Source of the DNA: Marinobacter sp.
Lineage (GTDB): Bacteria; Pseudomonadota; Gammaproteobacteria; Pseudomonadales; Oleiphilaceae
Assembly (NCBI RefSeq): GCF_014859525.1
Contig: NZ_JACUUB010000001.1
Location: forward strand, 1-64,000
Direction of reading: 5' to 3'
DNA length: 64,000 bases
The notes beneath the pieces are model-generated. The model was not told the DNA's origin. It worked only from the letters and a program-made list of their open reading frames with translations, and made no database searches. Both the position numbers and the translations under genes were made by a program. Positions within the stretch are counted from its first letter, which is position 1. Every line of letters starts with the position of its first letter. This document shows positions 8,191-21,624 of the stretch, in pieces.

Positions 8191-9990
8191 TTACTCTTGG
8201 TCTTCTGCTTTGTTGCCTTCAACCGGCTTGGCAGAGCGACGCAGGCGAATGTGCAACTCTTTGAGCTGTTTTTCGTCTACTTCGCCCGGCGCCTGAGTCA
8301 TCAGGCAGGTGGCGCTCTGGGTCTTCGGGAAGGCAATCACGTCACGAATCGACGACGAGCCGGTCATCAGCATCACCAGACGGTCCAGGCCAAAGGCCAG
8401 GCCACCGTGAGGTGGGCAACCAAACTTCAGTGCGTCCAGCAGGAAGCCGAACTTGGCTCGGGCTTCTTCCTCACCAATGCCAAGAATGCGGAAAACAGTT
8501 TCCTGCATCTTGCCGTCGTGAATACGGATAGAACCGCCGCCCAGCTCGGTGCCGTTCAGCACCATGTCGTAGGCACGGGACAGTGCGGTAGCGGGATCGG
8601 AGGCCAGCTCTTCCGGGCTGCACGAGGGTGCTGTGAACGGATGATGAATGGCCGTCAGGCCACCATCCGAGGTCTCTTCGAACATCGGGAAGTCGACAAC
8701 CCACATCGGTGCCCACTCGCAGGTCAACATGTTCAGATCGTGGCCGACTTTGATGCGTAATGCGCCCAGCGCTTCGTTGACCACAGTGGCTTTGTCGGCA
8801 CCGAAGAACACGATGTCGCCGTCTTCCGCACCCACGCGCTCGATGATCGCCAGGGCAATGTCATCACCCAGGAACTTCACAATCGGAGACTGCAAGCCTT
8901 CGACACCTTTGGCCAGGTCGTTAACCTTGATGTAGGCCAGGCCCTTGGCCCCATAGATGCCAACAAATTTGGTGTAGTCGTCGATCTGCTTTCGGCTCAG
9001 CTCGCCACCTTTCGGGACGCGCAGCGCCGCAACACGGCCTTTCGGGTCTTTTGCCGGGCCAGCGAATACTTTAAAGTCGACGCCTTCAACCAGGTCACCA
9101 ACGTCGAGCAGTTCGAGCGGAATCCGCAGGTCTGGTTTGTCACTACCAAAACGCTGCATGGCTTCGGAGTATGGCATGCGCGGGAAGTCTGGCAGCTCAA
9201 CATCCAGCACGTCTTTGAACAGGGACCGAATCATGTCTTCGTTCAGCTGCATCAAAGTCTCTTCGTCAATGAAGGAGGCCTCGATATCTACCTGGGTAAA
9301 TTCAGGCTGGCGATCTGCCCGCAGGTCTTCGTCGCGGAAACATTTGGCGATCTGGTAGTAGCGATCAACGCCAGACACCATCAGCATTTGTTTGAACAGC
9401 TGAGGTGACTGGGGCAGCGCAAAGAAGGAACCGTCGTGGGTCCGGCTGGGTACCAGGTAATCGCGGGCACCTTCCGGGGTGGCCCGGGTCAGAATGGGCG
9501 TTTCCACATCCATGAAGCCGCGGCTGTCCAGGAAGTTACGGATGTAGCTGGTAACCCGGGAGCGGAAGCGCAGACGATTGATCATTTCTGGCCGACGCAG
9601 GTCGATAAAGCGGTAACGCAGGCGAACGTCTTCGCCCACGTCTACGTGTTCATCCAGCGGGAACGGCGGGGTGGCGGCTGCGTTCAGGATAACCAGCTCT
9701 TTACCCAGCAGCTCTACCTGGCCGGTAGGCATAGTGTTGTTTTCGGTGCCGGCAGGGCGACGACGTACGCGGCCAGTGATTTTGACCACAAATTCGCTAC
9801 GGACTTTTTCCGCCAGACCAAAGCTTTCAGGGGTGTCTGGATCGATAACCACCTGAGACATGCCATCCCGATCCCGCAGATCCAGGAAGATAACCCCGCC
9901 GTGGTCACGGCGGCGGTGTACCCATCCGCAGAGTGTGACTTCCTGATCAATGTGGGATTCGTTGATCCCACCGCAATAATGACTGCGCAT
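8191..9990 (-). CDS. aspS: Aspartate--tRNA ligase
   Basis: Class II aminoacyl-tRNA synthetase of the bacterial type, 599 aa. An N-terminal OB-fold anticodon-binding domain (about 1-105, with [15 protein letters not shown]) is followed by the catalytic core with motif 2 ([20 protein letters not shown]), an inserted GAD domain (about 290-415) and motif 3 ([13 protein letters not shown], about 525-540). It attaches Asp to tRNA-Asp. The ATG start is preceded by a long leader with a perfect inverted repeat (10039-10149), and a TATAAT at 10206-10211 is a candidate -10 box. Confidence 0.98.
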
Positions 9991-10038
9991 ATCGGTTCCC
10001 GTTCGTTCTGAATGTGTGCGTTAATTCGTGATGTCTGG

Positions 10039-10149
10039 GCAATCAGGTGGGGATGGCTTTCCGAAACCGTGCGGAGCCATGGATGGCGAAGCCGAGCTTA
10101 CACGGACGTATTCACAGCGTGTTTCGGAAAGCCATCCCCACCTGATTGC
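10039..10149. repeat. Perfect 29-bp inverted repeat with structured 53-nt loop
   Basis: Arms at 10039-10067 and 10121-10149 are exact reverse complements over 29 bp. The arm begins GCAATCAGGTGGGGATGG. The loop has further pairing: CCGTG with CACGG, and GCCAT-GG-ATGGC near 10076-10087. The element lies between divergent genes aspS and the FabR-like gene, inside the probable aspS leader. No U-tract follows, so it is not a textbook terminator. It may be a dispersed intergenic repeat or a structured leader RNA. Confidence 0.9.
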
Positions 10150-10205
10150 TTGCAGCGAAATCCTGGCCGATGGAAATTTTTGCGACCTTACTGGAAAAGC
10201 CGCCC

Positions 10206-10211
10206 ATTATA
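10206..10211 (-). promoter_or_regulatory. Candidate -10 box for aspS
   Basis: TATAAT on the minus strand, about 216 bp upstream of the aspS ATG. The -35 region (TGATTT at 17-bp spacing) is weak. If used, the aspS mRNA would carry a leader of about 210 nt containing the 29-bp inverted repeat. Confidence 0.35.
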
Positions 10212-10324
10212 AACACAATGCCGTTGAAAATCAGGCGTACCGAAACGCATTTGAGCCACTCAGATGACTCCATGTGAACAGACGGCTAAAATGCCGGGTT
10301 TTAGCGGTCGTTGGAGTAGCCATT

Positions 10325-10951
10325 TTGGCCACCAGAGCAGAGCAGAAACTGAAGACCCGCCGGGCATTAATGGACGCCGCCCTGGCGCAGCTGAGCGCAG
10401 ACCGGGGCTTTGGCAGCCTGAGCTTGCGAGAAGTAGCCCGTGAAGCTGGCATCGCCCCAACCTCATTCTATCGGCACTTTTCAGAGCTGGATGAATTGGG
10501 CCTGGCCTTGGTGGATGAAGGCGGTGTGGCGCTGCGGCAACTGATGCGCCAGGCCCGCAAGCGGATTGTTCGGAACGGGAGTGCGATTTCCACCTCGGTA
10601 GACACATTCATGGAGTATCTGGGCAATAATGCCAACCTGTTCCGCCTGATGTTGCGGGAGCGCACCGGGGTATCCAAGCCCTTTCGTACGGCGGTGAAGG
10701 CGGAAATTGATCACTTTGTGACCGAGCTTGCAGATGACCTGCGCCGCTTTGCAGAAGAGCAGAACAAACAGCTGGCAGAGCCACGCCTGGTGGCTGAAGC
10801 CATGGTAACGCTGGTGTTTAATCAGGGAGCGGAAGCACTGGATGCCACACCCAAAGAGCGGGAAGAGCTGAAAGTCAAATTGAAAACCGAGTTGCGAATG
10901 ATTCTGGTGGGCTCCCAGACCCTGGCCCAGTGGCAACAGGGCCCGGAGTAG
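10325..10951 (+). CDS. fabR: FabR-like TetR-family transcriptional repressor
   Basis: TetR-family regulator closely resembling FabR, which represses unsaturated-fatty-acid genes (fabA/fabB) in enterics. The start chosen is TTG at 10325, with GGAG 8 nt upstream and an N-terminus ([20 protein letters not shown]) that aligns with FabR, giving 208 aa; a GTG at 10274 is possible but less likely. The HTH is [20 protein letters not shown] (about 34-53), followed by the family motif [12 protein letters not shown]. The remainder is the ligand-binding helical domain. It diverges from aspS. Confidence 0.85.
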
Positions 10952-21116: not shown

Positions 21117-21321
21117 AAAAATTGCTGTGATCCTCTGCAGCGGTATTTGGCGAATGCGTTTCAACGTCCTGCCCAAGGCTTTTCGTTGCCCTTCCTCAGT
21201 ACGCTCCGGATGTTCCAGCAACGGTTTCCGCTCCGGCAGAAGCCGAGTCCGTACAGGCTGCTACCTGTGCGGAATCCGAACGTCCCGTGAGGGCAACATT
21301 TCAGTAAGACAGGAAAGATCG

Positions 21322-21531
21322 ATGTCCGATACCAAGACTGGCCAAGTAAAGTGGTTCAACGAATCCAAAGGCTTTGGCTTTATTGCTCAGGAAGGCGGCA
21401 GTGACGTTTTCGTTCACTACAGTGCAATCAATTCCGGCGGTTTCCGTACTCTGGCAGAGGGCCAGCAAGTACAGTTCACCGTTACTCAGGGACCGAAAGG
21501 CCCGCAGGCGGAAAACGTAACCCCGCTGTAA
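21322..21531 (+). CDS. Cold-shock protein (CspA family)
   Basis: Single cold-shock OB-fold domain of 69 aa that binds ssRNA and ssDNA. RNP1 is KGFGFI and RNP2 is VFVHYS. The ATG at 21322 is preceded by AGGA; the open frame extends 65 codons upstream, but that part is the untranslated leader. A strong hairpin follows (21575-21605). A second cold-shock gene (cspD-like) occurs at 47695. Confidence 0.95.
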
Positions 21532-21574
21532 GCGGTTGCGTTAACTGCCGGATGCCCCTCACGGGCAGACGGAA

Positions 21575-21605
21575 AAGAACGGCCAGCACATCGCTGGCCG
21601 TTCTT
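21575..21605. terminator. Bidirectional terminator between csp and leuA
   Basis: A perfect 13-bp stem (AAGAACGGCCAGC with GCTGGCCGTTCTT) around a 5-nt loop lies between convergent genes. On the plus strand it ends TTCTTGTATTT, and on the minus strand TTCTTTTCC. It probably serves both csp and leuA. Confidence 0.85.
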
Positions 21606-21624
21606 GTATTTGAAGGCTACCGGC

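Follow-up and report, generated by a model that had tools for sequence, protein, structure and literature searches.

CsrA/RsmA is a dimer that binds hairpin loops, and CsrB, CsrC and RsmX/Y/Z are RNAs with many sites each, encoded by a small number of dedicated sRNA genes. According to PMC4333381, the GGA-loop hairpins of these RNAs are able to sequester CsrA, and TwoAYGGAY has previously been proposed as a CsrA binder from motif matches; CANGGANG is given as an Rsm-binding motif in PMC6849547. TwoAYGGAY itself was recorded as a probable RNA of the human gut, γ-Proteobacteria and Clostridiales (PMC2864571). The Yersinia repeat YPAL is described in a review with target duplications of 3-26 bp at dyads (PMC2229807). 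Ysr224 is presented in two further sources as a multi-copy small RNA (PMC12112432) and as being among the most abundant annotated sRNAs (PMC9029176). Within the partial literature coverage, no passage joins TwoAYGGAY, YPAL, Ysr224 and CsrA-linked dispersed repeats.

We analysed a window of 64,000 nucleotides of Marinobacter sp. (contig NZ_JACUUB010000001.1, positions 1 to 64,000), in which an initial annotation had pointed to an inverted repeat in the probable leader of aspS. Judged from its sequence and fold, this element is of the YPAL/TwoAYGGAY kind and related to the YPAL repeat of Yersinia. As a feature of aspS it is ordinary; at the level of the family the strand-specific folding signal is strong, and a docking role for CsrA/Rsm is plausible.

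The window element and its copies

The features of the locus are listed in Table 1. The perfect inverted repeat of the initial annotation is present as described: the arms are complementary at 29 of 29 positions, are separated by 53 nt and span 111 nt from outer end to outer end. On the + strand, the left arm is followed by a joint, hairpin 1, AG, hairpin 2, GCG and the right arm. Of the two helices previously proposed within the loop, GCCAT/ATGGC is real and corresponds to hairpin 1, whereas CCGTG/CACGG found no support, its CACGG being the conserved CANGG part of loop 2. The + strand folds at -73.5 kcal/mol compared with a mean of -39.7 for shuffled sequences (z -9.2, with none of 200 shuffles equally stable), and the corresponding z value for the - strand is -10.2. 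A scan of positions 9900-10400 found no terminator-like site, in keeping with the reported lack of a U-tract; the element does not show the G+C stem followed by a U-run of an intrinsic terminator.

Table 1. Features of the window element and its surroundings (positions in the window)
Feature	Positions	Strand	Remarks
aspS, aspartate-tRNA ligase	8191..9990	-	599-aa ORF; named from the initial annotation and the look of the translation
Whole element per covariance model R1	10027..10161	+	128.6 bits
Outer-stem left arm, 29 nt	10039..10067	+	perfect complement of 10121-10149; arm sequence varies among copies, pairing kept
Hairpin 1, GCC-AUGGAU-GGC	10076..10087	+	CANGGANG motif at 10078-10085; stem pairs with changes on both sides
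Near-invariant AG between hairpins	10095..10096	+	each 115/116; AG likewise here in the RF01731 consensus
Hairpin 2, UAC-ACGGAC-GUA	10099..10110	+	CANGGANG motif at 10101-10108; closing pairs covary
Near-invariant GCG preceding right arm	10117..10119	+	G 116, C 113, G 116 of 116
Outer-stem right arm, 29 nt	10121..10149	+	perfect complement of left arm
TATAAT of probable aspS promoter	10206..10211	-	element sits between TATAAT and start codon
Divergent neighbouring ORF	10274..10951	+	from the ORF list, start uncertain; presumably TetR-like (by eye)

A DNA search of the Marinobacter sp. genome returned 40 matching pieces, and a covariance model (R1) was built from 36 copies, all from this source genome. 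Single-genome searches with R1 (source, G035, G045 and G052; best 150 candidates per genome scored) gave 94 rows in the source genome, comprising 68 places of at least 65 bits on the strand with the ANGGAY motifs (hereafter the ANGGAY strand), a further 23 rows that represent the opposite strand of such places, and three weak ones; G035, G045 and the single-contig G052 gave 94, 90 and 106 matches, respectively. R1 matches occur in 60 of the 61 genomes of the genus, source included, with numbers per genome from 0 (G048) to at least 53. Across the order, at an E-value of 1e-6, 90 of the 244 genomes have a match, and 47 of the 112 genera are represented. The copy counting proposed in the initial annotation thus shows that the sequence is not single-copy, 67 of the 68 source-genome places lying away from aspS.

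A core-pattern scan of named genomes yielded at least 120 stretches. Among the 80 matches listed by name, Marinobacter forms the largest group (36), with 13 Yersinia and 11 Pectobacterium titles; the remaining listed matches belong to Morganella, Samsonia, Stenotrophomonas, Vreelandella, Halovibrio, Klebsiella and other metagenome bins. The other 40 stretches (L230-L269) also entered the counts of arm mismatches, neighbouring pairs and gene orientation given below. Of 14 named loci with a 500-nt match to stretches of the source genome, 12 are Marinobacter, at 72-82% identity. Of the two interpretations offered at the outset, that of a dispersed structured repeat of Marinobacter type is borne out by these figures, and that of an aspS regulatory RNA is not, as detailed below. 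The core pattern was also seen on one contig of a viral collection (L270:6239-6273), and two copies (L201 and L166) come from contigs whose titles name a Klebsiella pneumoniae MAG. These contigs may be misbinned, given the similarity of the L201 core to that of L200, a Pseudomonadales bin.

Motifs in the flanks of other copies suggest that the true repeat unit extends beyond the arms. The 5' motif, AAAGTTTGG, adjoins the arm and extends the stem (best motif in 148 flanks, a count that, like those of gene orientation and of the first neighbour pairs, may miss a few copies), and the motif search placed a 3' motif, CCAGAAGGCTAGG, some 7-16 nt past the arm. Among the single best motifs examined per width in the 148 5' flanks, headed by AAAGTTTGG, there was no promoter motif of the element's own. 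Visual inspection had suggested a "TACTC" box before the arm, but the motif search did not return it and it was dropped.

Conserved loops and strand-specific pairing

Both loops read C-A-N-G-G-A-N-G, that is CANGGANG, almost without exception in 116 R1 copies from 40 stretches of two other genomes (covariance-model hits, the model having been built on pattern-picked copies and the alignment fitted to it). In either loop, all 116 copies have the C, A, G, G and the closing G, and the last A is kept in 115 of 116 for hairpin 1 and in all 115 rows with letters for hairpin 2. Two strict CANGGAYG loops are present in 105 of the 116 rows in the slice examined; of the other 11, eight carry a purine (A or G) instead of Y and still conform to CANGGANG, one is cut by the slice, and two are true departures (L274 in loop 1 and L295 in loop 2). 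The pattern-picked sets of copies, including those used for arm mismatches and gene orientation, required two GGA loops and cannot serve as a measure of loop conservation. With CANGGANG in two hairpin loops, the window copy has the sequence features of a CsrA/RsmA-binding RNA, for which at least two such sites were sought.

In the alignment fitted to the model, 96.6% of the cells are paired, compared with 66.0% in shuffles and 35-46% when the alignment is slid. The covariance analysis proposed in the initial annotation revealed both-sided changes at 36 of 40 base pairs, with pairing of the arms kept through double changes. Turnover of the arms was then assessed in 52 orthologous element pairs with matching flanks from the source genome, G035 and G045, the three genomes being compared pairwise so that some events are counted more than once. 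The inner 24 arm pairs comprise 1022 unchanged pairs, 45 single changes and 175 double changes. Thirty of the 52 orthologous pairs differ at three positions or fewer, and these least diverged pairs account for 20 single and eight double changes; the other 22 differ at four positions or more. Some of the strongly changed pairs have also switched core subtype, and one hybrid element (L280, in G035 at about 2191-2326) has a left arm as in the source genome and a right arm as in G045, possibly a snapshot of arm replacement. Point-wise compensation and block replacement between copies thus both take place. Because the double changes in the arms come partly from block replacement, the covariation counts overstate point-wise compensation. 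In the seven aspS-site elements that share the window orientation, the arms differ solely by double changes, with no single ones. The strand asymmetry speaks against pure correction of a DNA palindrome as a complete account, but replacement or recombination between copies does contribute double changes.

The mismatches that survive in the arms are asymmetric between the strands. In 255 distinct arm pairs (6085 positions), 96.6% of the positions are Watson-Crick; read on the ANGGAY strand, 117 of the mismatches are G·T and 17 are A·C, with a further 70 of other kinds (p 1.5e-19 for G·T versus A·C; every mismatch was scored alike in the choice of helix). The counts were 11 versus 3 (p 0.057) in an earlier set of the first 36 copies, and 99 versus 14 after similar arms were thinned to 201 pairs. 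When 234 arm pairs were divided according to the arrangement of the flanking genes, the G·T to A·C counts were 36:6, 34:4, 17:3 and 21:4, such that the contrast persists (36 versus 6) where both flanking genes are oriented against the ANGGAY strand. Because G·T exceeds A·C whatever the orientation of the neighbouring genes, a single-stranded fold of the ANGGAY strand is maintained; and because the asymmetry is seen in all four gene arrangements, it is not due to read-through from neighbours. The family therefore carries a strand-resolved evolutionary signal, the fold of one strand being kept wherever a copy sits. The G·T excess could reflect folding of RNA or of single-stranded DNA alike. In G052 the copies show no replication-strand bias (58 versus 48, p 0.38, with the origin placed at dnaA and the genome length approximate), and the lack of an excess on either replication strand lends no support to a lagging-strand single-stranded DNA substrate.

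Proposed mechanism and alternative explanations

Among the mechanisms considered for the element, a two-site CsrA/Rsm-binding RNA fits best and is plausible from the motifs and the fold. The reading that we favour, at roughly even chances, is that of a dispersed, non-coding and non-autonomous element of the YPAL/TwoAYGGAY kind, whose functional form is the ANGGAY single strand, acting as an RNA that captures CsrA. The strand in question (the + strand in the window, antisense to aspS), most likely as RNA, would fold into an outer stem of 23-33 bp that presents two CANGGANG-loop hairpins, a shape of the kind bound by the CsrA/RsmA dimer. Each transcribed copy would then capture CsrA, and this capture would either protect or silence the copy's own transcript or make the copy one of many decoys, and movement of the copies would be brought about by an enzyme supplied in trans. 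One csrA match was found in each of the seven genomes tested, and none of the seven yielded PrrB_RsmZ, the sole Csr/Rsm sRNA sought, over its cut-off. Since G048 has csrA without the element, the latter is not needed for CsrA control; this genome, from the same genus and with no element match, represents a natural control and also contains three Y1 transposase matches. Elsewhere in the window, positions 21121-21606 match the cspA thermoregulator RNA (88.1 bits, compared with an Rfam cut-off of 78).

The genomic setting was examined mainly in the G035 and G045 stretches, in which 2 of 103 elements overlap called genes. Convergent genes flank 28 of 99 elements, compared with 57 of 405 intergenic regions, and divergent genes flank 16 of 99 versus 92 of 405; the upstream gene is directed towards the element in 52 of 99 copies, and the downstream gene is convergent in 59 of 99 (genes were called by a simple script based on codon scores, with the window as training set, which the orientation analysis applied to other genera as well). 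Because about half of the upstream genes face the element and the downstream genes are more often convergent, read-through often yields the opposite strand. When all analysed loci are taken together, 37 of 39 pairs of close neighbouring copies are divergent, including 15 of 15 in G035 and G045; in G052 the figure is 13 of 13. In L205 and L216 (and similarly in L246), the spacers between divergent copies contain another palindromic repeat, GTCGGATTAGCGAAGCGTAATCCGAC, which has GTAG-like ends and looks REP-like by eye.

The leading alternative is a selfish miniature element. Its conserved loops and stem would be the recognition signal of a mobilising enzyme on a single-stranded DNA or RNA intermediate, with no benefit to the host, and we consider this a serious possibility, though one on the doubtful side. 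It is favoured by the spread of matches per species, from 0 to at least 53 and up to 106 in G052, by the pattern at aspS, where the 11 genomes closest in AspS have the element and most others have lost or altered it, by a strand asymmetry unaffected by neighbouring genes, and by the divergent order of 37 of 39 close neighbours. Against it, a mutual comparison of 386 ORFs that lie near copies (40 stretches from two genomes) brought up no transposase recognisable by eye among the rows listed, none of the 30 Y1 transposase loci scanned (of 71 places) has a copy, and the replication strands of G052 are used without bias. The comparisons yielded no recent insertion that shows a clear target duplication, and the aspS sites are too diverged to judge. 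The one clean presence/absence difference, of about 188 nt (L063 filled, L281 empty), shows no clear target duplication and is probably more simply a loss in G035 than an insertion, because the source genome and G045 both have the copy.

An element that acts at the DNA level as a palindrome (a cruciform, a nucleoid or gyrase site, or a bidirectional terminator), with no role for a single strand, is improbable. The good folding of both strands and the frequency of copies between convergent genes (28 of 99 versus 57 of 405 intergenic regions) agree with such a role, but the 117 G·T versus 17 A·C mismatches are unexpected if the strands count equally, the loop letters are nearly invariant and a U-tract is lacking. 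Still less probable is a REP/REPIN moved by a RAYT (TnpA-REP) transposase, even though the copies are palindromic, intergenic, dispersed and often arranged in inverted pairs. Y1_Tnp is found in only 34 of the 61 genus genomes, several with at least 53 element matches having none, whereas the element-free G048 has three matches; this origin was rejected, as the presence of Y1_Tnp does not track the copies and 0 of the 30 loci scanned are flanked by a copy within about 1.5 kb.

The aspS site was compared in the best 30 of the 60 genomes with a strong AspS match (60 of 61 in the genus), source included. The TATAAT noted earlier is present, and 28 of the 30 genomes have TATAATGG in the 420 nt upstream of aspS; a two-hexamer scan of 9900-10400, in which a -35 hexamer was required, found no minus-strand promoter and a single one on the + strand (10264-10292). 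The distance from TATAAT to ATG is 221 nt in the window, so the leader length predicted earlier (about 210 nt) is approximately correct provided that this TATAAT is used, and the window element is likely to lie inside the aspS 5' leader. Twelve of the 30 genomes have a full-length element at aspS (L090-L100, and L111 with two copies), one has a degenerate element (L106), and in 17 there is a core-less remnant or no recognisable element. The ANGGAY strand is antisense to aspS at seven of the full-length sites, sense at four (L092, L094, L095 and L098) and in both orientations in L111. Ranked by AspS similarity, the first 11 genomes all have the element, which is absent or altered in most others. 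The TATAAT-to-ATG distance is 62-95 nt without the element, 209-224 nt at filled sites and 126-136 nt at five sites with apparent remnants (L110, L113, L115, L117 and L118). Neither place nor orientation before aspS is conserved among the 30 genomes, although the promoter is, and the comparison thus refutes a general aspS regulatory RNA; a species-specific effect on aspS is possible. The element is best described, from this comparison, as an insertion in the aspS leader with turnover at the site and not as a dedicated aspS switch. A cis-acting regulator of the aspS leader, for which the position between the conserved TATAAT and the start codon would speak, is hardly credible in view of the 12 of 30 occupied sites, the varying orientation and the 67 further copies elsewhere in the source genome.

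Relation to known elements

Like the repeat family of the window, YPAL/RU-2 (about 168 bp in Yersinia) is short and dispersed. By eye, the RU-2 sequence displayed in Table 1b of PMC2759123 has the same core, namely a CAAGGAUG-loop hairpin, GAGC, a CAUGGAUG-loop hairpin and GCG. R1 was run on 34 of the 80 listed named loci, and matched all 20 of the Yersinia, Pectobacterium, Samsonia and Morganella loci given (49-69 bits; loci fetched by core pattern), such that core sequence and structure are common to both. The enterobacterial copies differ in having arms with internal loops and another sequence, whereas the Marinobacter arms of 23-33 bp are nearly perfect. YPAL measures about 167-168 bp, compared with 111 nt from arm to arm for the window element and 188 nt in the one presence/absence difference, and its target duplications have no counterpart shown for the Marinobacter copies.

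The window copy shares with TwoAYGGAY (RF01731) a long outer stem, two AYGGAY-loop hairpins and the AG between them. RF01731 gave 35 matches in the source genome, all of them R1 copies and two above the cut-off of 43 (48.6 and 45.2 bits), and none in 14 control genomes. The window copy, at 27.2 bits, falls below the gathering score and is therefore of the same kind only, not an Rfam member. RF01731 and the Ysr224 model (RF02770) were both run on eight of the 80 listed named loci, all non-Marinobacter. The former, at an E-value of 0.1, matched none of them, YPAL-type loci included, so it is the R1 copies that link TwoAYGGAY to YPAL. In the literature passages available, TwoAYGGAY is not presented as a mobile repeat. 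Ysr224 exceeded its cut-off in four of the eight loci, two from Yersinia and two from Pectobacterium, at the position of the repeat (L162:1814-1920, L171:5814-5920, L163:2077-2183 and L157:638-745), its model representing the strand opposite to the ANGGAY strand. The reported abundance of Ysr224 may reflect the repeat family and not a single sRNA gene.

An orphan RNA family, a mobile repeat of Yersinia and, on the opposite strand, an Rfam sRNA are hereby tied to one architecture. A broader proposal, which we put forward tentatively and consider rather unlikely as a whole, is that YPAL, TwoAYGGAY and Ysr224 are names for parts of one class of widespread mobile elements, each carrying a two-site CsrA/Rsm docking RNA. 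The roughly 70-106 sites counted per genome would then act as distributed decoys and as portable CsrA-responsive modules, and their spread may use a folded single-stranded (perhaps RNA) ANGGAY intermediate. If so, tens of dispersed two-site CsrA targets per genome would alter the accounting of CsrA titration. The element has GGA-loop hairpins in common with the decoys CsrB, CsrC and RsmX/Y/Z; in contrast to these RNAs, the element would offer its sites in some 70 dispersed copies, with two candidate sites each.
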